Source: Bradyrhizobium diazoefficiens (GTDB lineage Bacteria > Pseudomonadota > Alphaproteobacteria > Rhizobiales > Xanthobacteraceae). From it: a DNA stretch of 64,000 nt. Position numbers and translations under genes: made by a program. The stretch is taken from the NCBI RefSeq assembly GCF_018131185.1, contig NZ_JAFCJE010000008.1, positions 186,001 to 250,000 on the forward strand, in the 5' to 3' direction. The notes beneath the pieces are model-generated. The model worked only from the letters and a program-made list of their open reading frames with translations. It had not been told where the DNA came from and made no database searches. Positions 12,233 through 29,869 of this stretch are shown here, one piece after another. Within the stretch, counting starts at the first letter, position 1. Each line of letters begins with the position of its first letter.

Positions 12233-12263
12233 TCGTTGCCCTCCCTCATCTGTTTCTTGTCTG

Positions 12264-14266: not shown

Positions 14267-15144
14267 GCCGTCGCCTCCGCGAGCATGGCATCGAGCCGCG
14301 GCGAGATGAAATGCAGATCCTCCTCGTCCTTCAGCGCCACCCCGATCGAGCGCTTGAAGGCATCCGGCCATCGCGCACCGCCCTTGTTGAGGAGCGTCGC
14401 GGCCTCGGCCCAGTCGACCGCCTCGGCAATGCCCGGCGCCTTGCTGAGGGGTTCGCGCCGCAACTTTTCCACGGCTGTGACGACGGCGCGGGCGGTGGCC
14501 TCGGCGACGCTGGAGGCGCGCATCATGATGATCCGCGCCTCGCGCTCGGCGGTCGGATAGTCGATCCAGTGATAGACGCAGCGGCGGCGCAGGGCCTCGT
14601 GCAAATCGCGCGTGCGGTTCGACGTCAGCACGACCACGGGGCGTTCGGCCGCGCGAACCGTGCCGCGCTCGGGAATCGAGATCTGGAAGTCGGAGAGGAA
14701 TTCGAGCAGGAACGCCTCGAACTCCTGATCGGCGCGGTCGATCTCGTCGATCAGGAGCACGGTGGAATCGGGCGCGCGCAACACCGCCAGCATCGGCCGC
14801 TCGATCAGGAAGGTCTCGCCATAGATGTCGATGCTCTCGTCGCCGGCCTGGCGGATCGCCAGCATCTGGCGCGGGTAGTTCCATTCGTAGAGCGCAGCGG
14901 ACGCGTCGATGCCCTCATAGCATTGCAGGCGGATGAGGCGGCGGCCGAGCACGGCGGCGATCGCTTTTGCGGCTTCCGTCTTGCCGACGCCCGGCGCGCC
15001 TTCCAGCAGCAGCGGCTTGCCGAGCGCGAGGCCGAGATAGGCTGATGTCGCAAGGCCCTCGTCGGCGAGGTAGTAGGCCGCGCGAAGCGCCTTCTCCAGT
15101 GCCTCCGGGCTGTCGATGCCGACGATGTTGCTGCGAACCGCCAC
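14263..15144 (-). CDS. MoxR/CoxD-like AAA+ ATPase
   Basis: A 293-residue AAA+ ATPase. Walker A GAPGVGKT is at residues 49-56, Walker B VLLIDEID at 128-135 and a sensor/arginine region LTSNRTRDLHEALRRRC follows. In CO dehydrogenase operons CoxD is a chaperone that helps insert sulfur and copper at the active site together with CoxE. Here it lies 11 bp after the molybdenum subunit gene and overlaps the CoxE-like gene by 4 bp. This indicates that the hydroxylase needs post-translational activation, although the active-site sequence is not that of a form I CO dehydrogenase. Confidence 0.9.
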   Translation of the reverse strand: MAVRSNIVGIDSPEALEKALRAAYYLADEGLATSAYLGLALGKPLLLEGAPGVGKTEAAKAIAAVLGRRLIRLQCYEGIDASAALYEWNYPRQMLAIRQAGDESIDIYGETFLIERPMLAVLRAPDSTVLLIDEIDRADQEFEAFLLEFLSDFQISIPERGTVRAAERPVVVLTSNRTRDLHEALRRRCVYHWIDYPTAEREARIIMMRASSVAEATARAVVTAVEKLRREPLSKAPGIAEAVDWAEAATLLNKGGARWPDAFKRSIGVALKDEEDLHFISPRLDAMLAEATA

Positions 15145-15155
15145 GGCTTAATCCT

Positions 15156-16178
15156 CTAGCGCCGTGCCTGCGGCCGTGCGCCGCCCTGGCTCTTGATCGC
15201 GCGCAGTACCTTTTCAGGCGTGATCGGCAGGTCGTCGATGCGCACGCCTACGGCGTTGAAGATCGCGTTGGCAACGGCCGGCAGAACCGGGTTGGCGCAC
15301 ATCTCGCCGGGGCCTTTTGCCCCGAAGGGACCATCGGGCGCGGGGCGTTCCAGCACCGCGATATCGTGCGGACAGATGTCGCCGGGACCTGGCATCAGAT
15401 ACTCGACGAAGTCGCGGGGGCCGTGAACGGGATCGGGATAATAGGGTTCCGGGGTCTCGTAGAGCGCGTGGCTGACGCCCATCCAGGCGCCGCCGACGAG
15501 CTGCTGCTCCACCAGACGCGGGTTGAGCGCGCGGCCGAGCTCATAGGCGGAGTCCATCCGTACCATCGCGACCTCGCCGGTCTCGTCGTCGACCTCGACC
15601 TCGGCAACGAGACAGGCATGGGCATAGCAGGTTGCCGGCGACATCTCGCCGGTCTCGGGATCGACGTTGGAGAGCGGGACCAGGAAGATGCCGCGACCGG
15701 AGATGGTCTTGCCCTGCTTGAACTGCGCGGCAATCGCGACGTCCTTGGTCGAGATCGAGCGGTGCGGTGCACCTTTGACGTGGATGTTGCCGCGGCCGTC
15801 GGTCTCCAGATCGGCCGCGTTGACCTCCAGCTCCTCGGCGGCCGCCTCCATCATCACGCCGCGCGCCTCGCGGGCGGCGGCCATCACGGCGTTGCCGACG
15901 CGGTGGGTGCCGCGCGAGGCGAACGAGCCCATGCAGTGCGGACCGGTGTCGGAGTCCGCCGTGTCGACATAGACATCCTCGACCGGCACGCCCAGCGTCT
16001 CGGCGCAGATCTGCCGCGTCACCGATTTCATGCCCTGGCCGAGGTCGATCGACGACAAGGCCACGGTGAACTTGCCGCTGGGATTGGAGTGAACCAGGGC
16101 CTGGCTGGGATCTCCGCCAAGGTTCATGCCGATGGGATAATTGATCGACGCCATGCCGCGTCCGCGATGCCTGGTCAT
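15156..16178 (-). CDS. Molybdenum hydroxylase large subunit, C-terminal half (MoCoBD_2 part)
   Basis: A 340-residue protein that corresponds to the second half of a xanthine dehydrogenase-family large subunit. It carries the DLGQGMKSVTRQ loop (about 45-55), the SFASRGTHRVGNAV segment and the catalytic glutamate in GAKGPGEMCANP (Glu292). The ATG at 16178 begins one base after the stop of the N-terminal half (TGA at 16182-16180, then C, then ATG), and the two are in different frames. A functional large subunit therefore needs both polypeptides to assemble. Alternatively it is one gene with a frameshift; the neat stop-start arrangement and family-like MTRHRGRGMASINYP start argue for two genes. 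Confidence 0.85.
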   Translation of the reverse strand: MTRHRGRGMASINYPIGMNLGGDPSQALVHSNPSGKFTVALSSIDLGQGMKSVTRQICAETLGVPVEDVYVDTADSDTGPHCMGSFASRGTHRVGNAVMAAAREARGVMMEAAAEELEVNAADLETDGRGNIHVKGAPHRSISTKDVAIAAQFKQGKTISGRGIFLVPLSNVDPETGEMSPATCYAHACLVAEVEVDDETGEVAMVRMDSAYELGRALNPRLVEQQLVGGAWMGVSHALYETPEPYYPDPVHGPRDFVEYLMPGPGDICPHDIAVLERPAPDGPFGAKGPGEMCANPVLPAVANAIFNAVGVRIDDLPITPEKVLRAIKSQGGARPQARR

Positions 16179-16179
16179 G

Positions 16180-17775
16180 TCAGCGTCTCCTGGTGCCGAA
16201 CACCGACGAGAACCGCGTCGCGCCGTGGGATGGCGCAGCCGGGCGCGGCGGGGGAGGTGGCGGCGCCGGCGGGGGCGGATCGCGCGGCGGTTCTCGCGTG
16301 ACCGTTGGCGGCAGCCGGTCATAGCTGGTGCGCTGCTGGACCGGCGCGGCTGGACGTGCGCGCGAAGAATCCGTCGGCGTTGGTGGGATCACCGCGCGGC
16401 TGCCGCCGCCCTCCTTGCGCGAGGAGGCGCGCCTGAACTCGTCGCGGATCTGCCATTTGGCTTTCTCAGCGGCGACCTGCACGCATTCGATAAGCGCGGT
16501 GTTCTTGGCCTCGCGCCGGTGTGCCTTCATGTCGCCGTCGCGATAGGCGTTGAGGATGCGAAACTCCATCGGGTCCATGCCGACGAGGTTCGCGAGCTTG
16601 TCCATCTGGCATTCGATGGCGAAGTCCATCGCCGTGACGCCGAAGCCGCGCATGGCGGTCGCGGGCGTGCGGTTGGTGAAGACGCAATAGACGTCGCCAT
16701 AGACGTTCGGGATGGTGTAGGGGCCCGGCAGATGCGCGGCGCACTTCACCGCGGCGTAGCTCGACAGCCGCGTATAGGCACCGCTGTCGAAATAGGCTCG
16801 GATCTTGCGCGCGACGATGCGGCCGTCACGCATCACGCCATCCTTGATGTAGATCCGTTCAGCGCCGCGCGGCGGGCCGTATTGCATTTCCTCTTCGCGC
16901 CCGAACACGTAGCGGACGGGGCGTCCCGTCAGCATGGCGCCGAGGATGGCGAGCGGCTCGGTCAAAGTGTCCACCTTGCCGCCGAAGCCGCCACCCACGG
17001 TGCCGCCGATGAAGTGGAAGGTGTTGGACGGCACGTTCAAGATCTTGGCGCAGGTGTCGACCGAGAAGAACAGCGCCTGCGTCGAGGTATAGACGACGTA
17101 GCGGCCATTGGTGTCAGGCGCGGCGATGGCGCCGTTGGTCTCGGTCGGCGCGTGCTCGATGGGCGACATCTGGTAGCGCTGCTCGAGCACGTGATCTGCG
17201 TTCGCCAGCGCCGCATCGGCGTCGCCGAACCGCAGGCGCTGGTGGTCGTAGACATCGTGATAGATGAAAGCGTTCTTCGGATAGGTCTCGTTGACCACGG
17301 GCGCACCGGGCTTGAGCGCGTCCTCGACGTCGAACACGGTCGGCAGCGGTTCGTAGTCGACCTTGACCTTCGCGATGGCCTCGAAGGCCTCGCGCTCGCT
17401 GTCGGCGACGATCGCGACGATAGGCTCGCCCTTGTAGCGGACCTTGTCGACCGCCAGCGACGGCTCGTCGTCCTTGCCGAAATTGATCAGGCTCAGAAGC
17501 GTGTTGAGATTGACCGGCACGTCCGCGCCGCGGATGATCCGGCGTACGCCGGCCGACCGCTCCGCCTCGGTGGTGTCGATGCGACGAATCCGTGCGTGGG
17601 CCTGTGTCGAGCGCACGACCTTCAGGTGCAGCATGCCCTGCAGCTTATGGTCGTTGAAGTAGCTCGACGTGCCCGTGACATGGCCGAGCATGTCCTGGCG
17701 TTGGGTGCCCTTGCCGATCTCCTTGAGGTTGTCGTCGCGCTCGTCGGCGAAGATGTCCTTGCGCAGTTCCAGCAT
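16180..17775 (-). CDS. Molybdenum hydroxylase large subunit, N-terminal half with proline-rich tail
   Basis: A 531-residue protein holding the Ald_Xan_dh a/b-hammerhead domain (about 20-145) and the first molybdopterin-binding domain (about 165-445). The glycine loop GGTVGGGFGGK is at 258-267 and AMRGFGVT at 374-381. The latter is the xanthine dehydrogenase-like form, not the AYRCSFR loop of form I CO dehydrogenase, so carbon monoxide is an unlikely substrate. From about residue 447 the sequence turns into a low-complexity Ser/Arg/Pro tail, with a run of prolines at 499-510, then stops, and the catalytic half starts one base later in another frame. The tail is unlike anything in the normal fold and might tether the halves. 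Confidence 0.85.
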   Translation of the reverse strand: MLELRKDIFADERDDNLKEIGKGTQRQDMLGHVTGTSSYFNDHKLQGMLHLKVVRSTQAHARIRRIDTTEAERSAGVRRIIRGADVPVNLNTLLSLINFGKDDEPSLAVDKVRYKGEPIVAIVADSEREAFEAIAKVKVDYEPLPTVFDVEDALKPGAPVVNETYPKNAFIYHDVYDHQRLRFGDADAALANADHVLEQRYQMSPIEHAPTETNGAIAAPDTNGRYVVYTSTQALFFSVDTCAKILNVPSNTFHFIGGTVGGGFGGKVDTLTEPLAILGAMLTGRPVRYVFGREEEMQYGPPRGAERIYIKDGVMRDGRIVARKIRAYFDSGAYTRLSSYAAVKCAAHLPGPYTIPNVYGDVYCVFTNRTPATAMRGFGVTAMDFAIECQMDKLANLVGMDPMEFRILNAYRDGDMKAHRREAKNTALIECVQVAAEKAKWQIRDEFRRASSRKEGGGSRAVIPPTPTDSSRARPAAPVQQRTSYDRLPPTVTREPPRDPPPPAPPPPPPRPAAPSHGATRFSSVFGTRRR

Positions 17776-17784
17776 GGTCTGACC

Positions 17785-18261
17785 TCAGGCGCTGACCCGG
17801 CCGCCGGCGGCAGCGAGGATGGCATTGATGATCGGCTCGTAGCCGGTGCAGCGGCAGATGTTGCCGGAAATGGCTTCGATCACCTCGTCGCGGCTGGGCG
17901 AGGGATTGCGGTCGAGCAGCGCCTTGGCGGCCATCAGCATCCCCGGGGTGCAATAGCCGCACTGGGCGGCAAAATTGTCGGCGAAGGCGCGCTGCAGCGG
18001 GTGCAGGTTCGGGCCCTGCTTCATGCCGTCGAGCGTGTCGATCGAACGGCCGGCGACCGTCTCGGCGAGCGTCAGGCAGGAGAGGTGCAGCTCGCCGTCA
18101 ACGAGCACGCTGCACGTGCCGCAGCCACCCTGGCCGCAGCCGAATTTCGGCGTCATGTCGCCGATCAGCTCGCGCAGCGCCACCAGCAGATTGGTGCCGC
18201 CGTCGACGAAGATCGCGACGTCGCGGCCGTTGTGACGAAATTGCAGGGGGATTTTGGCCAT
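17785..18261 (-). CDS. 2Fe-2S small subunit of molybdenum hydroxylase (CoxS-like)
   Basis: A 158-residue protein carrying two [2Fe-2S] clusters that pass electrons from molybdenum to FAD. The plant-ferredoxin-type cluster uses Cys42, 47, 50 and 62 (CGQGGCGTC...C), and the second uses Cys101, 104, 136 and 138 (CGYC and CRCTG). Length and motif spacing are normal. The ATG at 18261 begins MAKIPLQFRHNG, where homology starts; the frame continues upstream only as spurious translation. It sits 4 bp after the FAD subunit gene and 9 bp before the molybdopterin subunit. Confidence 0.95.
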   Translation of the reverse strand: MAKIPLQFRHNGRDVAIFVDGGTNLLVALRELIGDMTPKFGCGQGGCGTCSVLVDGELHLSCLTLAETVAGRSIDTLDGMKQGPNLHPLQRAFADNFAAQCGYCTPGMLMAAKALLDRNPSPSRDEVIEAISGNICRCTGYEPIINAILAAAGGRVSA

Positions 18262-18265
18262 GGCC

Positions 18266-19084
18266 CTATTCCTGTTCCGACAGCAAACGACGTAGATGCA
18301 CGCCGACGATCTCGCGGCGATACCAGGCGCTGCCGAGCGCGTTGTCGGATGGCGAGGTTCCTTCGGTGGCCGCGGATGCGGCCGTCGCGATGGTCGCGGC
18401 ATCCAGCGAGCGGCCCTCCAGCGCGCGCTCGGCGGCGCGGGCGCGGATCTGGGTCGGTGCCATCGATCCCAGCGCGATCCGGGCGCCCGCGATACGTCCG
18501 CCGCTGATCGGCAGATGGGCCGCGAGCGTGACGACCGAACCGCCCTTCGGCTTGATGCGCGCGATCTTGCGATAACGGAAGGCTTCGCTGTTGGCGGGAC
18601 GGGTGCAGGACACCGACAGCACCAATGTCCCGGCCTGTCGTTCGCGCGCCTGCAGGAACTCTTCGATCGGGACGTCGCGCGCGCCAAAGCCGCCGGCTAC
18701 AGTGACGGTAGCATCGAGCGCCAGCAGCGCGACGGTGAAATCGCCGTAGGGATTTGGCGCGAAGAGGTTGCCGCCGACCGTACCCATGTTGCGCACGGCG
18801 GGACCGCCGATCGAACGGGCGGGCGCGTGCAGGAAGGCGAGGTCGCGTTCGGCGAGGACGCGCGCGAAGGTGACGCCGGCGCCCAATGTGATGCGTGGGC
18901 CCGAGGCGTCGATCCTGGTCAGTGCCTGGTCCTGTGCGCGCACCACGGTCGAGATGGAAACATCCCCCTCGTTCAGCGCTCGCATCACCAGCGTGCCGCC
19001 GCCGAGATAGCGCGCGCTGCGGTCCGAGGACAGCGCGCCGGCCGCCTCGCTGGCGCTTGCAAAAGTCTTCACTGTCACAGCCAT
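18266..19084 (-). CDS. FAD-binding subunit of molybdenum hydroxylase (CoxM-like)
   Basis: A 272-residue protein of the CoxM/XDH FAD-binding family. The two FAD motifs are RYLGGGTLVMR (about 25-35) and IGGPAVRNMGTVGGN (92-106). The C-terminal CO_deh_flav_C domain follows from about residue 165. Gene order FAD, Fe-S, Mo is that of cox operons (M-S-L). The start at 19084 gives MAVTVKTFASASEA, a normal N-terminus; the longer frame to 19297 overlaps the SRPBCC gene. The subunit would deliver electrons to a quinone or other acceptor in the cytoplasm or at the membrane. Confidence 0.93.
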   Translation of the reverse strand: MAVTVKTFASASEAAGALSSDRSARYLGGGTLVMRALNEGDVSISTVVRAQDQALTRIDASGPRITLGAGVTFARVLAERDLAFLHAPARSIGGPAVRNMGTVGGNLFAPNPYGDFTVALLALDATVTVAGGFGARDVPIEEFLQARERQAGTLVLSVSCTRPANSEAFRYRKIARIKPKGGSVVTLAAHLPISGGRIAGARIALGSMAPTQIRARAAERALEGRSLDAATIATAASAATEGTSPSDNALGSAWYRREIVGVHLRRLLSEQE

Positions 19085-19086
19085 GA

Positions 19087-19530
19087 TTACGCGGCCTCCT
19101 TCAGGTGCCGGCGGATCGCCTCGAAGCCTGCCTGATAGATGTCTTCGGCGACCATATGGGTCATACGGTCCTTGTCCTCGGGCTTCGTGGTGAAACGGGA
19201 TTCCCAGTGCCAGAAAGTCCGGTCGCCGTCGGTGACCGGCAGCAGCCGGACATGAGCGACGTAGTTGAACATCGGCACCGGTGTATCGAGCAGGCAATAG
19301 CTGAAGGACTGTTCCAGGTCCGACAGCGCCAGCAATTGCTCGCGCAACTCGGAGCCGTCCGTCAGCTTGAACCGCCTGACGCAGCCGATCTTGTCGGACG
19401 ACTGCGCACGCTCGATCGAGGAGGTCGCGACCGCCGGATGCCAGCGATCATGCCCGTTGAAATCGCGCAGCACCGCCCACGTCGCGTCGGTCGGCGCGTC
19501 CAGGATCGTGCTCTTGACGATATGCGGCAC
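19087..19530 (-). CDS. SRPBCC (START-like) protein, second of a tandem pair
   Basis: A 147-residue SRPBCC-fold protein with a helix-grip ligand pocket. It begins with GTG at 19530, giving MPHIVKSTILDAP, and DFNGHDRWHPAV is the usual W-H-P motif of polyketide cyclase/CoxG-like members. It shares the pattern I-G-C-V-R-x-F-x-L and PVTDGD-x-TF with the gene just upstream, so the two arose by duplication. CoxG proteins in CO dehydrogenase clusters belong to the same superfamily and anchor or assist the enzyme; here they may bind substrate or membrane. Gap to the FAD subunit gene is 2 bp. Confidence 0.85.
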   Translation of the reverse strand: MPHIVKSTILDAPTDATWAVLRDFNGHDRWHPAVATSSIERAQSSDKIGCVRRFKLTDGSELREQLLALSDLEQSFSYCLLDTPVPMFNYVAHVRLLPVTDGDRTFWHWESRFTTKPEDKDRMTHMVAEDIYQAGFEAIRRHLKEAA

Positions 19531-19532
19531 CG

Positions 19533-19970
19533 CTAGCCTCCGAACACGCGCTTGAGCGCGTCGAACCCGCCCTGGAACACGCCGCCGCCGATATTGCTGA
19601 CGAGCTCGGTCTCCCGCTCCGGCGCGCAGTCGAACTCGGCGGTCCATTCCATGAAGGTCTGGTCGCCGTCGGTGACGGGGGTCAGCCGCAGGGTCGCGAC
19701 GTAGTTCTCGACGCCCATTGGCGATTCCAGGATCGAATAAGTGCAGAACATGTCGTAGTCGGAGAGGCCGAGCAGCTTCTCGCGGATTCGGTCGCCGTTG
19801 CGCAGGCGAAAATCGCGCACACACCCGATCTTGTCGGAGGGCTCGCCGCCCTCGATGCGGCTTTCGGCGATGGCCGGATGCCAGTTCGGCAGGCCATTGA
19901 AATCACGCACCCGCGCCCAGACGCGGTCGTTGCGGGCGTTGACGACGGTGGAGACGTAGACGCGAGCCAT
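19533..19970 (-). CDS. SRPBCC (START-like) protein, first of a tandem pair
   Basis: A 145-residue SRPBCC-fold protein (MARVYVSTVVNARND...), with DFNGLPNWHPAI near residues 24-35, SDKIGCVRDFRL in the middle and GGVFQGGFDALK at the C-terminal helix. It is a diverged paralogue of the next gene (2 bp downstream). Placement between a flotillin and a molybdenum hydroxylase is suggestive: a hydrophobic ligand pocket could carry a poorly soluble substrate between membrane and enzyme. This role is inference from fold and context only. Confidence 0.85.
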   Translation of the reverse strand: MARVYVSTVVNARNDRVWARVRDFNGLPNWHPAIAESRIEGGEPSDKIGCVRDFRLRNGDRIREKLLGLSDYDMFCTYSILESPMGVENYVATLRLTPVTDGDQTFMEWTAEFDCAPERETELVSNIGGGVFQGGFDALKRVFGG

Positions 19971-19979
19971 GGTGCGACC

Positions 19980-22886
19980 TCAGCTCTTCTTCTTCGGCCC
20001 GCGCTCGGCCGCCGCCTCGCCGCCCTCGGCCGCAGGCGGGGAGGCCGCCGGCTTGTCACCCCCACCGCCGCCGCCCTTGCGCGCGGACTCCTTGATGCCC
20101 TGCATGTCGCGCGCCTCGCGGATCAGGCCCGGCATCTTGGCGAGGCTGCCGCCCTCGACGCCGATATCCGCAAGGATGGAATCGATCAGCGGCGCCTGGA
20201 CGCGGTAGCGCAGGGCGGAATCGATCACCTCGTCGGTGGCGCTGCGGCCGCCATTGCCGCCATTCCCGTTGCCGTTGAGGCCATCGACCTGGAGGATGCG
20301 GATGCCCTCGATCTTCTCCATCGGCTTGACGCTTTCGCGCACGATGCCCTCGATCCGGTCGAGCAGCTTTCTGCGGAACAGCGAGTAGCGCGCCTGATCG
20401 GTCAGCACGTTTTCGGCCTCGTTGAGCATCCGCTGCGCCTCGGCCTCGACCGCCGCACGAACGCGCTCGGCTTCCGCTGCGATCCGGGTCTCCTCGGCTT
20501 GTTTCTCGGCGATCAGGATTTCCACTGTCTTGCGTCGCTTCGCGATCTCGTTCTCGCGCGCCGTGATGACGCGCTCGGTTGCTTCCGTCGCACGCATCCG
20601 CGCTTCCTCTGCCGAAGCCTTGGCCGCGGACTCTTCCAACGACTTCAGGTGGATCGCGATCGCCTTCTCCATCAGGACGGTCTCGACCTCCTTCTCGCGG
20701 TTGACTTCCAGCTTGCGCAGCTCGCGCTCGCGGCCGACGCGGGCTTCATCCAGGCCGCGGTCGGATGCGATGCGTGCGCGCTCGACCTCCTCGCGGGAGG
20801 CGATCTCGGCCTCCTGCAAGGATTGCACGCGGGCGACCTCGAGCTGCTCGATGGCGCGGCGGCGTTCGATGCGCGCGGCTTCCAGCGCCTGCTCGCGCGA
20901 GACATCGGTGGTCTCGACCTCCTTGCGCGCGACGATCTCGGCCTGCCGGACCTGGCGATCGGCATCGATGCGTTCGGATCGCTTGGTCGACAGCGCGATG
21001 ACGCGGTCCTCGTCGGCGATCTCGACCGCCTTCTTCTGCTCGATATTGAGCACCTCGCGCTTCTTGGAGGAATTGATGCGCTCGGCCTCCAGCGCCAGAT
21101 CGACGGTGATGCGCTGGCGCTCGATGGCGTCGCGCCGCTTCAGCTCGGCCGCCTCCAGCACGCCGGTGCGCTCGATTTCGAGCGCCTTGGTGTCGCGCTC
21201 GGCCTGGATGCGCTCTGCCGCAACCGTCTTCTCCTGGGCGATGCGGGCCGCCTCGATCGCTTCGCGCGAGGCGATATCGGCCTCCTCAATGGCACGGTTG
21301 CGGGCGATCTCCAGCGAACGCACGCGCTCTTCCTGGGCTATGCGGCTGGCCTCAGTGGTCTCGCGCGCGGAGATGCCGGCGACGTCGAGCGCCTGGTTGC
21401 GCTCGATCTCCAACTGCCGCGTGTTCTGTTCGGCGGCGATGCGCTCTGCGGCGAGCGTCCGCTCGCGGGCAATGCGGGCGGCTTCCACGGCGCGCTGGGC
21501 CTCGATCTCGGCCTCCTGAATGGTGCGCACCTGCTGGATCTCCAGCGCGCGGGTACGCTCATCCGAGGAGATGCGCTCGACATTGACGATCAGCGTCTGG
21601 GCGATGCGGGCCTTCTCGGTCGCCTCGCGGGCGGCGATCTCAGCCTCGTCCACGGCACGCGAGCGCTCGATCTCGCGGCGCCGCGTCTCCTCCTCGTTGG
21701 CGATACGGGCATCGGTGACGACGCGATCCTGCTGGATCCGCGCCTTCTCGATGGCTTCGCGGGCGGCGATCTCGGCTTCCTCGATCGTGCGCATGCGCTC
21801 GATCTCGCGCTGGCGCACCTCGCGCTCTGACGCAATCCGCGTAGTGTCGATCGAACGCTGGTTGGCGATCCTCGTCTTCTCGATCTCCTCCCGTGCCAGC
21901 AGCTCCTTCTCCTCGATGGTCCGGGTCCGCTCGATCTCCTTCTGGCGAGTTTCCCGCTCCGAGGCGATGCGGGCCTCGGCGATCGCCTGGTCATTGGCGA
22001 TGCGGGCGCGCTCGATGGTCTCGCGGGCGGAGATCTGGGCCTGTTCGGCCTCGGTCTCGCGCAACGCGCGTTCACGGGCGACTTCCGTGCGCTGAAGCGC
22101 GCGGCGCATCTCGATGTCGCGCTCCTGCTCCAGCCGTGCGGTCTCGCTCTCGCGCTCGATCTCGAGCGCCTGCCGCTCGGCCTCCAGATTGCGGGTGCGG
22201 ATCTTGATCATCGAGTCCTGCTCGATGTCGTTGCGCAGCTTCCGCCTGGCCTCGATGTCCTGCATCAGCTGGGTCAGGCCTTCGGCGTCGAACCGGTTCG
22301 ACGGGTTGAAGAATTCGAGGTCGGTCTGGTCGAGATCGGTGATGGCGACGGATTCCAGCTCGAGGCCGTTCTGGGCGAGGGCCTCGGCCGCTTCGGTCTT
22401 GACGCGCGCGACATAGTCGCCGCGCCGCTCGTGCATCTCTTCCATGGTCATTTCGGAAGCAACCGAGCGGATCGCGGAGATGAACTTGCCGGCGAGCAGC
22501 GCGTGCAACTGCCCGGGCTCCAGGGTGCGGCGGCCGAGCGTTGCCGCTGCGATCGAGACCGCTTCGCGGGTCGGCTGCACGCGGACATAGAAGTCGGCTT
22601 CGATGTCGACGCGCATGCGGTCACGGGTAATCACGGCATCCTGCTTCGAGCGTACGATGCCCATCGGCAGCACGTTCATGTTGACGGGCGTGTAATCGTG
22701 GATGAAGGGCAGCACGAACGCGCCGCCATTGATCACCACGCGTTCGCCGAGGAAGCCGGTTCGGACGAACGAGGTCTCCTTGGAGGAGCGGTGGTAGAGC
22801 CAGTTCACGATGTAGACGCCGACCACGATCACGACGATCGCGACGATCAGCCAGAGGATCAATTCACCGACCAGATTCCCCGACAT
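19980..22886 (-). CDS. Giant flotillin-family SPFH protein with 44-residue coiled-coil repeats
   Basis: A 968-residue protein, about twice the usual flotillin length. One N-terminal membrane helix (about residues 8-30) is followed by an SPFH/band 7 domain (about 40-215). Residues about 284-735 are tandem 44-residue repeats, each made of four 11-residue units of the type EIAAREAIEKA-RIA..., indicating a long hendecad coiled coil. After a further helical section comes a Gly/Asn-rich linker (about 852-862) and a basic C-terminus ending GPKKKS. Flotillins scaffold membrane microdomains. Presence inside a catabolic/transport operon, 25 bp after the PEP-hydrolase-like gene, suggests that it organises the importer or enzymes at the membrane (inference). 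Confidence 0.88.
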   Translation of the reverse strand: MSGNLVGELILWLIVAIVVIVVGVYIVNWLYHRSSKETSFVRTGFLGERVVINGGAFVLPFIHDYTPVNMNVLPMGIVRSKQDAVITRDRMRVDIEADFYVRVQPTREAVSIAAATLGRRTLEPGQLHALLAGKFISAIRSVASEMTMEEMHERRGDYVARVKTEAAEALAQNGLELESVAITDLDQTDLEFFNPSNRFDAEGLTQLMQDIEARRKLRNDIEQDSMIKIRTRNLEAERQALEIERESETARLEQERDIEMRRALQRTEVARERALRETEAEQAQISARETIERARIANDQAIAEARIASERETRQKEIERTRTIEEKELLAREEIEKTRIANQRSIDTTRIASEREVRQREIERMRTIEEAEIAAREAIEKARIQQDRVVTDARIANEEETRRREIERSRAVDEAEIAAREATEKARIAQTLIVNVERISSDERTRALEIQQVRTIQEAEIEAQRAVEAARIARERTLAAERIAAEQNTRQLEIERNQALDVAGISARETTEASRIAQEERVRSLEIARNRAIEEADIASREAIEAARIAQEKTVAAERIQAERDTKALEIERTGVLEAAELKRRDAIERQRITVDLALEAERINSSKKREVLNIEQKKAVEIADEDRVIALSTKRSERIDADRQVRQAEIVARKEVETTDVSREQALEAARIERRRAIEQLEVARVQSLQEAEIASREEVERARIASDRGLDEARVGRERELRKLEVNREKEVETVLMEKAIAIHLKSLEESAAKASAEEARMRATEATERVITARENEIAKRRKTVEILIAEKQAEETRIAAEAERVRAAVEAEAQRMLNEAENVLTDQARYSLFRRKLLDRIEGIVRESVKPMEKIEGIRILQVDGLNGNGNGGNGGRSATDEVIDSALRYRVQAPLIDSILADIGVEGGSLAKMPGLIREARDMQGIKESARKGGGGGGDKPAASPPAAEGGEAAAERGPKKKS
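20682..22037 (-). repeat. 44-residue (132-bp) tandem repeat within the flotillin gene
   Basis: Unit starts can be placed at residues 284, 328, 372, 416, 460, 504, 537, 581, 625 and 694, so spacing is exactly 44 except for one 33-residue unit (504-536, loss of one hendecad) and one irregular 69-residue stretch (625-693). Each unit is four 11-mers; recurring elements are [EQ]I-x-AREAIE, ARIA-x-ER and EIER-x-R-x-IEEA. The DNA copies have diverged, so the repeat is maintained at protein level. Confidence 0.85.
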
Positions 22887-22911: not shown

Positions 22912-23745
22912 TTACCGCGCGCCGATCGCCTTGAATTGACGCACCTGTTCCGTCAGCGCCCGCTCCACGGGCAGCCGCTCCATCGAGGAGGCGCCGTAGA
23001 AGCCGTGGCAATGGCGGGTGTTCTTCATGATGAAATCGGCGTCGGCGGGATCCGCGATCGGACCGCCATGCGCCAGCACCAGAATGTCCGGATTGACGCT
23101 GAGTGCGGCGGATGCCCAGGTGTCGATCTGCGCCGGACAGTCGTTCAGCTTTGGCGCGGTCTGAGCGCCGATCGAGCCGCCGGTCGTCAGCCCCATGTGG
23201 CAGACGATGATGTCGGCGCCGGCGATCGCCATCGCGGCGGCCTCCTTCTCGCTGAAGACGTAAGGCGTCGTCAGCATGTCCTTGTCATGCGCCTTGGCGA
23301 TCATGTCGATCTCCAGCGCGTAGGACATGCCGGTCTCTTCGAGATTGGCGCGGAAGGTGCCGTCGATCAGGCCGACGGTCGGAAAGTTCTGGACGCCGGC
23401 AAAGCCGAGCGCCTTCAACTGGTCGAGGAACACGTCCATGTCGCGGAACGGATCGGTGCCGTTCACGCCCGCGAGCACCGGCGTCCTGGTGACCACGGGC
23501 AGAACTTCGTTCGCCATTTCGAGCACGATGGCATTGGCATCTCCGTATGCCATCAGCCCCGCGAGCGAGCCGCGGCCGGCCATCCGATAACGGCCGGAAT
23601 TGTAGATGACGATGAGATCGACACCGCCGGCCTCCTCGCACTTGGCCGATAGCCCGGTGCCGGCGCCGCCGCCGACGATCGGCTCGCCGCGCCTCGCCAT
23701 CTCGCGAAACCGCCTCAGCAGTGCCGTGCGTTCAAACCTTGCCAT
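22912..23745 (-). CDS. PEP hydrolase-family TIM-barrel protein (Tm-1 C-terminal half homologue)
   Basis: A 277-residue predicted TIM barrel of the 'phosphoenolpyruvate hydrolase-like' family (COG5564 type). Family features are [20 protein letters not shown] at about 25-44, the following [16 protein letters not shown] near the middle and the [18 protein letters not shown] loop. Relatives resemble PEP mutase/isocitrate lyase barrels, but no physiological reaction is firmly known. In plants and fungi this domain is the C-terminal half of the Tm-1 protein, whose N-terminal half is the UPF0261 domain. Here the UPF0261 domain is encoded 3 bp upstream, fused to an ABC ATPase. That adjacency supports a joint function. 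Confidence 0.85.
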
Positions 23746-23748
23746 CGG

Positions 23749-25956
23749 TCACCTCGCTAGTCTCCGCCGCGTTGCCGTGCGGCCGAACAGGGTTCGGAAT
23801 GCACTGACGATGGCGGCGGCGAAGTCGGGATCGTTGATGTTCTTCGGGACACGAAGGAGCTGACGATTGCCGGTCTGCCGTACCGTGCGCTCGAGCGTGC
23901 GGAACAGCGCGGCGTCGGCGTCCGGATCCCAGAACGGTTGGCCCGGCGCATCGAGCGCGGAGACACCGCCTTCGGGCAACAGGAAGCGCACAGGGCCATC
24001 CATCTGGTTGAGCCGCTCGCCGATCCAGCGGCCAATCCGCTCGTTCTCTTCCACGGTCGTCCGCATCAACGTCACCTGCGGATTATGGACGTGGAACTTG
24101 CGGCCGCGGTAGCGCTCGGGAATGGTCTCGGGCGCGCCGAAATTGACCATGTCCAGCGCGCCGACCGAGCCGACATAGGGGATGCGCGTGCGGATGACCG
24201 CACCGAGGCGGTCCTCCGTCGCCGGAAACACGCCGCCCATGAGGAGATCGCAGATCTCGGTCGTGGTGAGGTCGATGACGGCGGCGAGCTGGCCGGACTC
24301 GACGAGCTTCTCCATGGAGCGGCCGCCGACGCCGGTGGCGTGGAAGACCAGGCACTCGAAATCGTCACGCAGATCGACGGCGATCTTCTGCACAGCCGGC
24401 GTCGTCACGCCGAACATGGTGATGCCGACCGAAGGCAGGCCGGTCTCGGATGCCGTGGCGGCGCGCGCATCGAGGCGCGCTTTGACCATGCCGGCGATCG
24501 CATGGGCGCCGTTGGCCAGCACCGCGCGAGAAATCGAGTTCAGCCCCTGCACGTCGGTGACGGAGTACATCATCGTGATGTCGGCCGGGCCGACATAGGG
24601 CCCGACGTCACCGGACGCGACGGAGGAGATGATCAGCTTGGGCACGCCGACCGGGAGCGCGCGCATTCCCGGAGCAACCAGCGAGGCCGCGCCGGACCCG
24701 CCGGCCGAGATCACGCCGGCGACATTGCCCTGGCGCCGCAGCCAGTTGGCGAACGCATCGGCCATCGCGGTCACGGCAACCCCGCGATCCGGCCCGAATA
24801 CCGCAGCCCCGCCGCGGCCGTGATTCAGGGCGATCTCCTGCGCGGAGACATCGCAGGACGAATGCTTTCCGCTGGTCGAGACGTCGACCAGCCGCGTGCG
24901 CAGGCCGCTTTCAGCGATGATGTCGCGGATGTAGCGCAGCTCGATGCTCTTGGTGTCGAGCGTGCCGACGACCAGCACCACCGGTGGGCCCGCGGTCTGC
25001 GCCGCTACCGGCTCGCGCTTGCGCCGCGCCGTATCGTCGAGCCGCGCGACTTGCGTCGAGAGCGTGCGCGCCGCCGCCTCGATGCGGGCGATCGGCACCG
25101 GCTGCGACCACCGCGTCGGCAGCGTCGGGTTGGAGATGTAGATGCGGATCGGACCGTCGCGGCGCGGGGCCGGCGCCGGTTTGGCTTCGGTGCCGGACGC
25201 CGCGACATCGACATCGGGCTCGAGCTCGGCGTGAAGCCCGACGCCGAGCAGGCGCTGCTGCAGCTCGCGGTCGGCGGCAAGCCGCGCGGAATCGATGATG
25301 CGGTTGATGCGCCCGTTGACCATGATCGCGACGTTGCGCGAGATCGCGGTGGCGACGCCGATATTCTGCTCGATCACGAGCACGGACATATCGCCGTCCT
25401 CGCCTAGCCGCAGCAGCATCTCCTCGACCTGCGTCACGATGACAGGCGCAAGGCCCTCGGTCGGCTCGTCCATGATTAAAAGCTGCGGATTGGTGAGCAG
25501 CGCGCGCGAAATCGCCAGCATCTGCTGCTCGCCGCCGGAGAGCTGGCCGCCGCCGTGATCCCGGCGCTCGGCAAGGCGGGGGAAGGTGTCGTAGATGCGC
25601 TCGACCGTCCAGGCACCTCGCCGCATCCCGCCGGCGAGCTGCAGATGCTCCTCGACGCTGAGCGAGCGCCAGAGCCGGCGGCCCTGCGGCACATAGCCGA
25701 CGCCGAGCCGGGCGATCTGGGCGGAAGGCCGCTGCGTGACGTCCTCGCCGCGAACGCGGATCGAGCCGCCGCTCACGGCCACCAGCCCCATGATCGCCTT
25801 GCACAGCGTGGTCTTGCCCATGCCGTTGCGGCCGACGACGGAGAACACGCCGCTCTCCAGCGTGAGGTCGACGCCTTGCAGGGCGTGCGAATGACCGTAA
25901 TAGACGTCGAGCCCGCGGACCTCGAGTGCGGCGGCGGAGCGGCGGACCTCACTCAT
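23749..25956 (-). CDS. LivF-type ABC ATPase fused to Tm-1-like (UPF0261) domain
   Basis: A 735-residue fusion. Residues 1-245 are a complete ABC ATPase of the LivF class: Walker A GRNGMGKT (42-49), signature LSGGEQQ (139-145), Walker [11 protein letters not shown] (159-168). A charged/Pro-Ala linker with predicted helix (about 246-322) joins it to a full-length UPF0261/Tm-1-like domain (about 325-735) beginning [20 protein letters not shown]. Tm-1-like domains bind ATP. The ATG at 25956 overlaps the end of the LivG gene by 8 bp; further upstream codons belong to the LivG region. No stop, frameshift or duplicated start lies in the linker, so the fusion looks genuine. It would couple importer energising to a second nucleotide-binding module. 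Confidence 0.9.
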
Positions 25957-26731
25957 GGCCGCCTCCGAGATAAAGCTCCTGCACCTCGGGGTCGGACTGG
26001 ATCTCCTCCGGCAGGCCCTCCTTGAAGACGCGGCCATTGTGCATCATCGTGACGCTCTCGACGACGCGTAGCGCGACGTCCATGTCGTGCTCGATGATGA
26101 TGTAGCCGATATGCGCCGGGAGCGAGGTCAGGATCTCGATCAGCTCGGCCCGTTCGGTCGGCGACAGGCCCGCGGCCGGCTCGTCGAACAGGACGAAGCG
26201 CGGGGCGCCGGCGAGCGCCAGCGCGATCTCGAGCTGGCGCTGCTGGCCGTGCGCGAGCTCGGCGACGCGCTGATCCTTCACGGCCGAAAGATGCACGGCC
26301 TGAACCAGATTGTCGGCCGCATGCATCAGGGCATCGTTCTGTCCCGGACGCAGGAACGAGTAGCGCCCGCGCGAGACGCCGCGGCAGGCGAGGTAGACGT
26401 TGTCCTGCACGGTGAGGCCGGGGAACAGCGCCGAGATCTGGTAGGTCCGGCGCAGCCCGCGCCGGATTCGCTCGTAGGGCGGGAAGTGGGTGACGTCCTC
26501 GCCGAAGAAGCGGATGGTGCCGGAGGAGGGCGCGAAGTCTCCGGTGATGCAGTTGAACAGAGTTGTCTTGCCGGCACCGTTGGAGCCGAGCACGGCGCGC
26601 CGCTCGCCGGGGCGTACGGTCATGGTGACATCGGTCAGCGCAGCGAGCGCGCCGAATAATCTCGTCACACCGCGCAGCTCAAGCGCTGCACCGGCGCCGA
26701 CGGCCGAAAGGCGTTGCGCGACGCTATCCAT
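25949..26731 (-). CDS. LivG-type ABC transporter ATPase
   Basis: A 260-residue ATP-binding protein of the branched-chain amino acid class. Walker A GSNGAGKT is at 49-56; the signature region is unusual, [12 protein letters not shown], as in LivG proteins, followed by Walker [14 protein letters not shown]. It pairs with the fused LivF-type ATPase to drive the LivH/LivM permease. It overlaps LivM by 8 bp upstream and the LivF fusion by 8 bp downstream, indicating tight translational coupling. Substrate cannot be deduced; the operon suggests an organic compound destined for the molybdenum hydroxylase pathway. Confidence 0.93.
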
Positions 26732-27806
26732 GGCCGCGTCCTCCGCCAGGTCGATTTGCGGCCGGACGCCGGCTCTGACGCCAGCGCTGCCACAGGCCGA
26801 TGACGCCGTCCGAGGACCAGAACACGATGGCGAGAAAGCCGAGCCCGATCAGCAGCCGGAAGCGGTTGCCGTCGAGGCCGATCCTGACCAGGAAGTCGAG
26901 CGCGAAGGTGCGCAGCAGCACGAAGATCAGCGCGCCGATGAAGGGGCCGATGGGGCGTGTGATGCCGCCGACGACGGCGATGATCAGAACGTCGATGCAG
27001 GCCCCGACGCTGACCGAGCCCGGCGAGATCTGGCGGTAGTTCCAGACCTGGAGCACGCCGGCCAGCGCGGCCACGAAGGAAGCGAAGGCATAGGCCGCGA
27101 TGCGGTGCGCATTGACGTTGAAGCCGAGCGCCGCCATGCGGCGCGGATTGTCGCGCACGCCCTGAAGGGCGAGGCCGAAGGGTGCGCGCGAAAGATATTC
27201 GACCGCGAAATAGCAGAGCGCGGCGACCGCCAGCACGATGTAATAGAAGGGAATGTCGGCGCGCCAGTTGACGCCCCAGAAATGTGGCGTGGCCACGGTA
27301 TTGATGCCGGTATGGCCGTTGAAGATCGCCCAGTTCTGATTGGTGAAATAGTAGAAGGCAGCTCCGATCGCGAGCGTGATCATGATGGTGTAGATGCCCT
27401 CGGTGCGCACGGCGAGCGCGCCGCCGAGCGTGCCGAACGCGGTTGCCAGCGCCAGCGCCATGGGGACCGCGAGCCACCACGGCCAGCCCAGGCTGATATT
27501 GGCGTTGCCGCTGACGCCGAACACGGCGACCATGTAGGCCGAGAAGCCCGCGATGGTGAGCTGCATCAGGCTGACCATGCCGCCATAGCCGGCGAGGAAC
27601 ATCAGGCTCAGCGCCATGGTGCCGAGAATGAGGGTGGAGGCGAAGATCTCGATCAGGAAAAAGCCGTTGGCGATCAGCGGCATGATCACGAGAACGACCG
27701 CGACGATCCAGGCCGCGGGATTGTTGATCTCCGGCCACGTCCGGGCCGCGCGCTGCGCCAGTGTGGCGGGAGGTGCGGTAACGCGGGCATCGTGGGCGAG
27801 CGACAT
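26724..27806 (-). CDS. LivM-type ABC transporter permease
   Basis: A 360-residue permease with eight to ten hydrophobic segments and the LivM family hallmarks: GYGGMVSLMQLTIAGFSAYM early, GALAVRTEGIYTIMITLAIG in the middle, and a long cytoplasmic loop before GVLQVWNYRQISPGS. LivM and LivH form the membrane channel of type I amino acid/amide importers. The ATG at 27806 lies 1 bp after the LivH stop. An arginine/glycine-rich C-terminal tail of about 20 residues is a little longer than usual and overlaps the LivG start. Confidence 0.92.
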   Translation of the reverse strand: MSLAHDARVTAPPATLAQRAARTWPEINNPAAWIVAVVLVIMPLIANGFFLIEIFASTLILGTMALSLMFLAGYGGMVSLMQLTIAGFSAYMVAVFGVSGNANISLGWPWWLAVPMALALATAFGTLGGALAVRTEGIYTIMITLAIGAAFYYFTNQNWAIFNGHTGINTVATPHFWGVNWRADIPFYYIVLAVAALCYFAVEYLSRAPFGLALQGVRDNPRRMAALGFNVNAHRIAAYAFASFVAALAGVLQVWNYRQISPGSVSVGACIDVLIIAVVGGITRPIGPFIGALIFVLLRTFALDFLVRIGLDGNRFRLLIGLGFLAIVFWSSDGVIGLWQRWRQSRRPAANRPGGGRGHG

Positions 27807-27807
27807 G

Positions 27808-28818
27808 TCAGCGCCTCGCCAACAGGCCTTGCGGCCGGATCGCCAGCACCAGCACCATGATCAGGAAGGTCACGACGATGGCGTAGGTCGGGATGTAGAC
27901 CGAGCCGAGCTGCTCGGCGAGGCCGATGATGAGCGCCCCGAGTGCCGCGCCGGGGATCGAGCCCATGCCGCCCACGATCACGACGACGAGCGAGGCCAAC
28001 AGGAATCGAATGTCCTCACCCGGCGATAACGACTGGAAGGTGCCGCCGACGACGCCGGCCATGCCCGCAAGTCCCGCGCCAAACGCGAACACGGCTACGA
28101 AGACGAGCTGGATACGCACACCGGTCGCAGCGAGGATATCGCGGTCGTCGACACCGGCGCGGATGATCATGCCGATGCGAGTGCGGTTGAGCGCAAGCCA
28201 CATCGCCACGCCGATGATCACGGATGCTACGAAGATCACCAGCCGCACCATGGGATATCTGAGATAGACCGGCTCGCCAGAGGATTTGATTGCCGTGACC
28301 AGCGGCAGCTCCACGGGGCCGATCAGCCAGTTCGGTGTCTGGATCTGGTAGAAATCGCCGCCGCAGGCCCACAGCATGAGATCGGCGAACACGATTGAAA
28401 GCCCGATCGTCACCATGGTCTGCCTGAGATCCTGCCCCTCTATCCGGCGGAACACGATCACTTGGAGCAGGACGCCCACCATGGCGGTGAGGATGAAGGC
28501 GACGATGAAGCTGAGCACCCAGGAGCCGGTCGCCGTACTGACGGCGTAGCCGACATAGCCGCCGAACAGGTAGAGCGAGCCGTGTGCGAGGTTGACGTTG
28601 CGCATCAATCCGAAGATCAGCGTGAAGCCGCTGGCGACGAGGAAATAGAGCCCTCCAAGCGTGATGCCGTTGAAGACGGCGTTGAGGAAGACGCGCTTGC
28701 GGCCGACGGCTTCTTCGAGACCCGGCGGCCAGACCGCGAAGATCAGCCAGAGCGCGACGGCAACGGCAATAATCAAAATCAGTGCCCAGGCCGGATGGCG
28801 TTCGACAAAGCGGCTCAT
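27808..28818 (-). CDS. LivH-type ABC transporter permease
   Basis: A 336-residue permease of the LivH family: GITLGGLYFLVASGFTLIFG (about 49-68) and the following MRNVNLAHGSLYLFGGYVGY (about 69-88) are its signature, and GVDDRDILAATGVR marks the cytoplasmic coupling loop. The start at 28818 gives a hydrophobic N-terminal helix right away; the open frame further upstream to 29097 runs through the intergenic region and part of the AraC gene and is spurious. It is the first gene of the 18-gene collinear run; the 223 bp upstream of it probably contain a promoter. Confidence 0.92.
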   Translation of the reverse strand: MSRFVERHPAWALILIIAVAVALWLIFAVWPPGLEEAVGRKRVFLNAVFNGITLGGLYFLVASGFTLIFGLMRNVNLAHGSLYLFGGYVGYAVSTATGSWVLSFIVAFILTAMVGVLLQVIVFRRIEGQDLRQTMVTIGLSIVFADLMLWACGGDFYQIQTPNWLIGPVELPLVTAIKSSGEPVYLRYPMVRLVIFVASVIIGVAMWLALNRTRIGMIIRAGVDDRDILAATGVRIQLVFVAVFAFGAGLAGMAGVVGGTFQSLSPGEDIRFLLASLVVVIVGGMGSIPGAALGALIIGLAEQLGSVYIPTYAIVVTFLIMVLVLAIRPQGLLARR

Positions 28819-29041
28819 GCTCTCGCCCCGCACACGGGGATAGGTCGCGAAGGCGCGGGCACAGCCCAACCGTCTCCCCGCAGGCGCGGAGAGGAGGGAT
28901 GCAAGCCCCTGCCGGCTGCGAGCCCTGCCATGGACGAACGTCCTCCCTGGACCAGCGACCCTCTTTCGGGATCGCGTTGCCCGCATCCTAGCGAGGCTGC
29001 GAGAGTGACGTTTGATCGTGAGTATCTTTTCGTGGCCGCGC
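28819..29041. other. Probable leader/promoter region of the LivH operon
   Basis: A 223-bp non-coding stretch between the AraC-type gene and LivH, both on the minus strand. It includes a bulged inverted repeat around 28873-28892 of the CTCTCC...GGAGAG type that recurs elsewhere in the window. No confident -35/-10 pair was identified by eye. It is the only gap over 31 bp between here and 9159, so the promoter of the long operon should lie here unless transcription reads through from the AraC gene. Confidence 0.4.
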
Positions 29042-29869
29042 TCAGGCGCGCAAAATCTTGGCTGCGCGGCGATAATCGGTCGGGGCCATCCCGACATTGG
29101 CGGCGAAGAAGCGGGTGAAGCCGCTCTGCGAGGAGAAGCCGAGATCGAATCCGATGTCCGCGATCGGCGTCTCGCTCGCCACCAGGGCGTCGAGTGCCTG
29201 TTCCATGATCAACGTGTTGAGATAGAGATTTGGGGTGACGCCGGTCTGTGTGCGGAACAGACGGTAGAAGTGCGGCCGGGATAGGCCGGATTCGCGCGCG
29301 ATCGTATCGAGCTCGATTTCGGCACCGGGGCTTTCCGACATCATCTTGATGCATTTGCGCACGCGGAAATCGGTGACGGACCCGCTTGCGCGCGGATCGC
29401 GGGCGATCTCGGCCTGCTGCCAGCTTTCGTCGTAGCAGATGTCGATCAACCTCCGCAGCTCGGAATCCAGACTGGAGAGCGATGGTGCGCCGCACACGAG
29501 CGCGGCGGTTCGCCTGATGTGCTTGTCGAGGGCCGGCGTGCGCTTGAACTGGGTGCGGCCGAAACGCAGCCGGTGGGTGCCCGAAGCATCTGGTGCAAAC
29601 CATTCGGCATTGACGTAGAGCACGAAGAAGATCGCGCCTCCTTCCAGATCGGCAGGCAGGAAATTGTGCGGCTCCCAGGGGTTGACCGCGACGACGGACG
29701 ACTCGGTGAGATCGTGGTGCCCGTCGGACACGTCGATGCATGCGGGCATGCCGCCGACATGGAAGATCAGATGACCTTCGCGATGGGCGTGGATATTGAA
29801 AGGGCGGTTCAACTGATAAACCGTCGCCCGACCGAACCGGCCGTGGAAGACGGCGAGCGCACGGCTCAT
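29042..29869 (-). CDS. AraC-family transcriptional regulator
   Basis: A 275-residue regulator with an N-terminal cupin-like sensing domain (HAHREGHLIFHVGG, about 27-40; NPWEPHNF near 63-70) and a C-terminal pair of helix-turn-helix motifs (about 175-275), including LDTIARESGLSRPHFYRLF and IADIGFDLGFSSQSGFTRFF. The family typically senses a small effector and activates adjacent genes. It lies between the solute-binding protein gene (121 bp upstream) and the LivH operon (223 bp downstream), so it is the obvious local regulator of both, probably responding to the imported compound or a metabolite (inference). Confidence 0.92.
   Translation of the reverse strand: MSRALAVFHGRFGRATVYQLNRPFNIHAHREGHLIFHVGGMPACIDVSDGHHDLTESSVVAVNPWEPHNFLPADLEGGAIFFVLYVNAEWFAPDASGTHRLRFGRTQFKRTPALDKHIRRTAALVCGAPSLSSLDSELRRLIDICYDESWQQAEIARDPRASGSVTDFRVRKCIKMMSESPGAEIELDTIARESGLSRPHFYRLFRTQTGVTPNLYLNTLIMEQALDALVASETPIADIGFDLGFSSQSGFTRFFAANVGMAPTDYRRAAKILRA

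Follow-up and report, generated by a model that had tools for sequence, protein, structure and literature searches.

How long can the helical stalk of a flotillin become, and in what steps does it change? These questions are raised by a gene on the minus strand (19980-22886) of a 64,000-nucleotide stretch of Bradyrhizobium diazoefficiens DNA (RefSeq assembly GCF_018131185.1, contig NZ_JAFCJE010000008.1, positions 186,001 to 250,000), hereafter referred to as the window, in whose numbering all coordinates are given. The gene encodes a flotillin of 968 amino acids, in which about 640 residues of helix with 11- and 44-residue periodicity separate the SPFH domain from the Flot domain. Comparison of this stalk with those of other flotillins revealed that stalk length is quantized in steps of 11 residues (hendecads), and a conserved gene cluster was found around the giant members. 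The stalk is probably the wall of an enlarged SPFH cage which is resized in hendecads, with the cage as part of an uptake and oxidation system.

Periodicity and predicted structure of the stalk

The protein comprises the following features (pLDDT, predicted local distance difference test score):

19980..22886 (-): giant flotillin, open reading frame of 968 amino acids, ATG start at 22886 (open reading frame and Pfam)
22794..22874 (-): N-terminal hydrophobic segment, residues 5-31, probable membrane anchor (sequence; AlphaFold2 helix 2-34, block pLDDT 68-90)
22326..22745 (-): SPFH / Band_7 domain, residues 48-187 (Pfam PF01145, E 6.4e-16, above the Pfam cut-off)
20979..22250 (-): unbroken hendecad stretch, residues ~213-636, anterior part of the putative helical wall (register model, period 3.66, AlphaFold2 helix 201-654)
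20667..22127 (-): eleven recognisable 44-residue super-repeat units, residues 254-740 (unit scan, lag-44 identity)
20901..21005 (-): phase-slip region (+3 residues), residues ~628-662 (register model, 69-residue spacing, AlphaFold2 helix break)
20559..20900 (-): posterior hendecad stretch, residues 663-776 (register model; AlphaFold2 helix 663-853)
20157..20510 (-): Flot C-terminal domain (putative cap), residues 793-910 (Pfam PF15975, E 2.7e-38, above the Pfam cut-off)
19983..20156 (-): Gly/Ala/Lys-rich C-terminal tail, length not quantized between relatives (50 distinct tail lengths, even modulo 11)

When residues 221-800 were compared with themselves, identity at lag 44 was 0.325 (z 14.9 versus shuffles), and the remaining strong lags were all multiples of 11 (88, 77, 33, 121 and 11). 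No heptad-multiple lag was prominent except 77, which also equals 7x11. Alanine recurred with a period of 3.660 (11/3 = 3.667), its power being 26.5 at 11/3 versus 1.0 at 7/2. Self-comparison lags and alanine period together ruled out a heptad coiled coil for the stalk. A first-pass annotation of the window had predicted a very long hendecad helix behind the SPFH domain, visible at 44-residue spacing in a self dot-plot, and both expectations were borne out. It had further described ten exact 44-residue units over about 450 residues, which was correct as to the repeat but not as to its uniformity. In a unit scan the super-repeats started at residues 254, 287, 331, 375, 419, 463, 507, 540, 584, 653 and 697, giving spacings of 33, 44 (five times), 33, 44, 69 and 44; about 11 units were recognisable over about 490 residues, the last ones degenerate. 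Two 33-residue steps thus replace the single 33-residue unit of the annotation, and the 69-residue step, which had gone unremarked, equals six hendecads plus a 3-residue phase slip (66+3).

The repeats are old at the DNA level, because no 132-bp tandem array was found in the flotillin gene by TRF (Tandem Repeats Finder) and because third codon positions of identical repeat residues agreed no better (0.61) than predicted from codon usage (0.65). The DNA of the repeats is saturated, and the two tests rule out that the pattern stems from tandem repeats that arose recently in the DNA. A 650-codon open frame runs antisense to the gene (19878-21830); it was not counted as a gene because such a frame is expected from composition, i.e. 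GC-rich DNA and a repetitive coil.

An AlphaFold2 model of the coil alone, which was used for helix continuity only, contained helices 201-654 and 663-853 (mean pLDDT 76). A low-confidence helix break near residues 655-662 was present both in this and in the full-length model, and it adjoins the phase slip located between residues 584 and 653. The models therefore support a continuous rod, a non-heptad helix running from the SPFH domain to the cap with one low-confidence break. Ile, Val and Leu were gathered at two hendecad positions about 130 degrees apart, with Ala on the other side, a pattern which in our own reading would be unlike the single stripe of a dimer. Neither the full protein nor Escherichia coli YqiK matched any solved structure by sequence search, and human flotillin was reached by profile search only.

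On sequence grounds the protein is assigned to a class already known, the giant flotillins of type SPFH2b, since its expanded coil and its total of 968 residues fit the criterion of about 800-1000 amino acids (definition in PMC2636767). Giant SPFH2 proteins of 800-1000 amino acids were already named in that paper (Hinderhofer et al. 2009), so that a flotillin of such length is not unprecedented, contrary to what the first-pass annotation implied. SPFH domain, flotillin C-terminal domain, strongly expanded coil and size are in common with the proteins defined there; members of the present set reach about 1180 amino acids and an SPFH-to-Flot span of 860 residues. Stalks of 816-860 residues were seen at four loci (L155, L184, L188 and L194), in proteins of about 1120-1180 amino acids that exceed the quoted range. 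Orthologues of the 968-residue flotillin were found by genome scan at 80 further loci, nearly all in Bradyrhizobium, with best-segment identities of 85-97%. Identity with the major vault protein, which has an SPFH-like shoulder and a cap helix, is not supported: no vault family was among the Pfam matches, N-terminal vault repeat domains were not found, and residues 1-47 hold only the hydrophobic helix.

Stalk length and its evolution

Flotillins were collected by Flot-domain searches of five genome samples, and the surrounding DNA was taken for the long ones. As a measure of stalk length we used d, counted in residues from the G of an FDAEGL-like motif (203 in the giant flotillin) to the K of a KPMEKI-like motif (854); it was determined in 200 Pseudomonadota proteins by profile alignments of both end domains. 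Outside Pseudomonadota, human flotillin alone was measurable; a Deinococcus relative was not anchorable at its C end. In the order to which the host genome belongs, open-frame lengths of flotillins formed two groups of about 525-640 and 670-1500 amino acids.

Values of d ranged from 252 to 860 residues, and 29 of the 32 distinct values fell into only two classes modulo 11 (classes 10 and 2), compared with a mean of 10.5 and a maximum of 16 in 2000 draws of random lengths. None of the other moduli from 3 to 22 showed a two-class effect, save 22 (2x11). Two spans served as controls: the tails behind the Flot motif (50 distinct lengths) were evenly distributed modulo 11, and the SPFH-internal span was almost constant (162-163). 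In the genus-level set, d was 651 in 79 of 80 proteins while the tails varied; the sole exception carried one extra residue at about position 811, which lies in the C-terminal Flot region and outside the repeat wall. Further, among 15 proteins of Gammaproteobacteria and plasmids that were gathered later and had no part in finding the rule, 13 belonged to class 10, and the lengths 208 and 219, absent from the first set, were among them. YqiK of E. coli (d 263) likewise belongs to class 10. Conjugative plasmids of E. coli and Shigella were seen to carry a YqiK-like flotillin (L233; about 82% identity to chromosomal YqiK) together with an OB-fold partner gene, and more than 300 plasmid records match.

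In a register model, for which 82 representative stalks served as training set, classes 2 and 10 differ by a single slip of +3 residues whose position close to the C end is constant. Nearly every class-2 giant had one +3 slip about 212-230 residues before the C anchor whatever its total length (about 245 residues before it in the 431-residue group), and no such slip was present in class-10 giants in this model. The sole class-5 protein (L136) had two slips, matching 10+3+3; together with a self-comparison peak at lag 124 this indicates that the slip-carrying block was duplicated. In a class-6 flotillin with a stalk of 369 residues (L203), a tandem block gave a peak at lag 106 (263+106 = 369). 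A second flotillin with the rule-breaking stalk of 369 was observed at L232.

To map changes in stalk length, a 121-row tree was built from both end domains by a quick method; 44 of its 118 inner branches were poorly supported. At least 44 changes were needed, of which 37 and 34 in two reconstructions were multiples of 11 (about four expected by chance). Pairs of proteins that are 93% identical in their end domains have stalks differing by 33, 33 and 55 residues. Only 2 of the 44 changes were multiples of 44, which rules out 44 residues as the evolutionary unit assumed by the first-pass annotation. Stalks of the giant clade of 574 residues and longer gave lag-44 z values of about 12-22. As judged from these sequences, 44 is a super-repeat common to the giant clade and 11 is the quantum of length. 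The view that helix phase is under selection, for which a single 33-residue unit had been cited, is upheld on other grounds, namely the length classes, the later set, the tree and the register model.

The gene cluster around the giant flotillin

On the tree of end domains, the giant clade with the gene cluster comprised 72 rows with a support of 99. In the window the cluster consists of the following genes in addition to the flotillin gene (ABC, ATP-binding cassette; PEP, phosphoenolpyruvate; FAD, flavin adenine dinucleotide; VWA, von Willebrand factor A):

29991-31241 (-): periplasmic binding protein (PF13458; synteny)
29042-29869 (-): AraC-family regulator (PF12833; synteny)
26724..29097 (-): two branched-chain-type permease genes, 26724-27806 and 27808-29097 (PF02653 twice; synteny)
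25949..26731 (-): ABC ATPase, LivG/UrtD-like (domain match; synteny)
23749..26037 (-): ABC ATPase, LivF/UrtE-like, fused to both UPF0261 (Tm-1-like) domains (PF00005, PF06792, PF23189; synteny)
22912..23745 (-): PEP-hydrolase-like TIM-barrel protein, conserved neighbour (PF09370, E 8e-131; synteny)
19087..19970 (-): two SRPBCC (Polyketide_cyc2) proteins, 19087-19524 and 19533-19970 (Pfam; synteny)
18266-19297 (-): FAD subunit of a CO-dehydrogenase/xanthine-dehydrogenase-type hydroxylase (PF00941, PF03450)
17785-18513 (-): [2Fe-2S] subunit of a CO-dehydrogenase/xanthine-dehydrogenase-type hydroxylase (PF01799, PF00111)
16180-17775 (-): molybdenum subunit, first gene, MoCoBD_1 with a Pro-rich tail ending in RFSSVFGTRRR (Pfam and sequence)
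15156-16322 (-): molybdenum subunit, second gene, MoCoBD_2 (Pfam)
13145-14884 (-): CoxE-like VWA protein, conserved downstream (PF05762; synteny)
12118-13209 (-): protein without assigned family, conserved downstream (synteny)

The order in the clade, all on the same strand, is: a periplasmic binding protein and/or an AraC regulator, two permeases, the LivG-like ATPase, the LivF-like ATPase-UPF0261 fusion, the PEP-hydrolase-like protein, the flotillin and two SRPBCC proteins. At loci with stalks of at least 574 residues, these are followed by the FAD, iron-sulphur and molybdenum subunits of the hydroxylase and by the CoxE-like VWA protein. Order and strand are kept in about 50 loci from many alphaproteobacterial families at about 50-80% protein identity. 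Among the loci taken from genomes, 31 had at least 13 of 15 tested genes, and about 20 had a shorter version lacking the hydroxylase; in the genus-level set the tested genes were present in all 67 complete loci (one without the outermost gene). Around flotillins of other clades, taken with comparable flanks, similarity was at most scattered and confined to single transporter or oxidoreductase genes; the exception was a basal locus (L186, stalk 274) where the transporter side of the cluster was present. The hydroxylase genes of the cluster occurred only with stalks of at least 574 residues, but as such loci form one clade, the correlation counts as a single event. Downstream of the cluster (9789-11363), an SMP-30/gluconolactonase domain was found fused with an isochorismatase domain.

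That the catabolic setting is not accidental, as proposed in the first-pass annotation, agrees with the conservation of these neighbours around the giant clade in many families, and gene order suggests a membrane-bound metabolic assembly. The opposite explanation, that flotillin and catabolic genes are co-transcribed but functionally unrelated, keeps a small share of the probability. It draws on the flotillins of other clades, which stand alone or beside a YqiJ/NfeD-like partner as does the second flotillin of the host, and it is opposed by the constancy of order and strand across families and by the presence of the gene set in every complete genus-level locus.

No NfeD/YqiJ-type partner was found beside the giant flotillin, and the only YqiJ_OB match of the host genome adjoins the other flotillin. 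This absence is not a defining failure, because such a partner is usual but not universal for SPFH2, and 17 genomes with SPFH2 lack NfeD2 according to PMC2636767. The second flotillin of the host (L207, about 564 amino acids) belongs to the same family and has a class-10 stalk of 274 residues; it differs from the giant in its canonical length, the lack of a 44-residue repeat and the YqiJ_OB partner encoded just upstream. Similarly, E. coli YqiK, an SPFH2 flotillin of 553 amino acids, has the same two end domains, but its stalk is under half as long as that of the giant, and its gene adjoins the partner gene yqiJ and no metabolic cluster.

The molybdenum subunit is encoded in two genes, and the first half ends in RFSS[VI][FS]G[TL]RRR in most loci (RRR in 39 of 39 counted). 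Split and C-terminal peptide are conserved in about 30 genomes, which rules out a frameshift in this genome as cause of the split; the length of the Pro-rich linker varies. In the host genome the peptide pattern occurs once, at the end of the molybdenum first half, and it looks like a docking or cargo signal.

Within the accessible literature, three findings appear to be novel: the rule of stalk length, the 44-residue repeat common to the clade and the conservation of the gene cluster. The searched text of PMC2636767 makes no mention of an 11-residue rule, a 44-residue repeat or a conserved metabolic cluster. No publication joining flotillin or SPFH with hendecads, or flotillin with UPF0261 or PEP-hydrolase-like genes, was found in a search that left most subscription journals and preprints outside.

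The cage model and its alternatives

Human flotillin forms a single-layer right-handed barrel of 44 parallel helices of 186 residues, which lacks heptads and is capped by the C-terminus (PMC11260169). Canonical bacterial stalks also follow the 11-residue rule, and the contrast with heptad-rich stalks drawn in the first-pass annotation is therefore wrong. The human FLOT1/FLOT2 cage (PDB 9bq2, PMC11260169) shares with the giant flotillin the domain order and a non-heptad helical wall; it differs in that its wall of 186 residues is about one third as long and in that the human proteins have no transmembrane helix. Other SPFH cages (prohibitin, HflK/C, Erlin, QmcA and stomatin) are domed rings (PMC12624060) with wall helices far shorter than that of the giant.

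By analogy, an SPFH cage of unusual size would most likely stand on the cytoplasmic membrane, with the helix of about 640 residues as one stave of its wall. The wide ring at the membrane would consist of SPFH domains, the helices would stand side by side, each in contact over its full length with a neighbour on either side, and the Flot domain would close the narrow cap. Since 11 residues correspond to three helical turns, whole hendecads would keep ring end and cap end in rotational phase and other insertions would twist one end of the wall against the other, so that wall length would change only in whole hendecads or through slips of 3 or 4 residues that are tolerated. A wall that preserves hendecads would explain the rule for short and giant members alike. 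In the clade studied here, the cage would be a constant part of a system for uptake and oxidation, made up of the Liv-type importer, the UPF0261/PEP-hydrolase-like pair, the SRPBCC proteins and, beside the longest stalks, the molybdenum hydroxylase; it would probably gather or enclose these components, a link to importer and enzyme that we infer from gene order. A wall with an 11-residue quantum would provide a simple, testable rule for building and resizing SPFH cages, for which nature offers a series of walls of about 190 to 840 residues. In addition, a clade with conserved importer, companion proteins and oxidoreductase would make the question of enclosure by a bacterial flotillin directly testable.

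Several points weigh against this cage. The AlphaFold2 models have low predicted template modelling scores (0.28 for the full-length protein, 0.21 for the coil alone), they are monomer models derived from alignments of little depth, and in the full-length one, which is poor, the SPFH domain is not folded. The rule is broken by the lengths 369 (class 6) and 267 (class 3) and by human FLOT1 and FLOT2, whose d of 205 each, as read from a printed alignment, falls into class 7, three residues short of class 10. Conserved clusters contain stalks of 395 to 860 residues, about a twofold range, and therefore the exact length seems unimportant for function. Further, gene neighbourhood does not show physical enclosure, and known cages taper, so that a 3.4 times longer wall needs a changed ring size or angle. 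In the literature searched, no experiment on a giant flotillin was found.

A more far-reaching version of the cage, which we regard as doubtful, holds that wall length sets ring size, and that a cage of about 120 subunits surrounds the importer and holds the hydroxylase via the tail and peptide of the molybdenum subunit. In published SPFH cages, subunit number is linear with the length of the CC1 helix, at 0.1782 subunits per residue or 1.96 per 11 residues (PMC12624060). Each hendecad would then stand for two further subunits, and 11-residue steps would reflect rings growing pair by pair. The number of about 120 was obtained with this slope and a wall taken as d minus 19, as in human flotillin; it is a speculation far outside the measured range of the relation. 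Such a cage would measure tens of nanometres in height and as much as about 90 nm in width, with the molybdenum subunit tethered by its Pro-rich tail and conserved C-terminal peptide, and might constitute a reaction chamber made of protein and based on the membrane, whose size has changed many times during evolution.

Alternatively, the stalk might be a long coiled-coil rod (dimer to tetramer) that tethers the membrane to a distant partner or to a second membrane, or keeps the two apart. Rod proteins with very long hendecad helices are known. The narrow end of human flotillin can attach to a second membrane (PMC11260169). The rod is nevertheless unlikely, as both end domains are those of cage-forming flotillins, as two separate Ile/Val positions per hendecad are unlike one dimer seam, and as lengths of 395 to 860 residues in one and the same gene cluster are not expected of a spacer with fixed reach.

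Compared with a wall that is held in phase, a purely mutational origin of the 11-residue steps, by unequal recombination of old 33-bp or 132-bp repeats under little structural constraint, is similarly improbable: giants do carry 44-residue sequence repeats and duplication of large blocks did produce some lengths (L136 and L203), but short flotillins without clear internal repeats obey the rule as well (252-296, 208 and 219) and the changes ignore the 44-residue unit although it forms the strongest repeats, so that this mechanism alone is less likely. It is further opposed by the saturation of the repeat DNA and by the exact wall length kept in nearly all of the 80 sampled orthologues.

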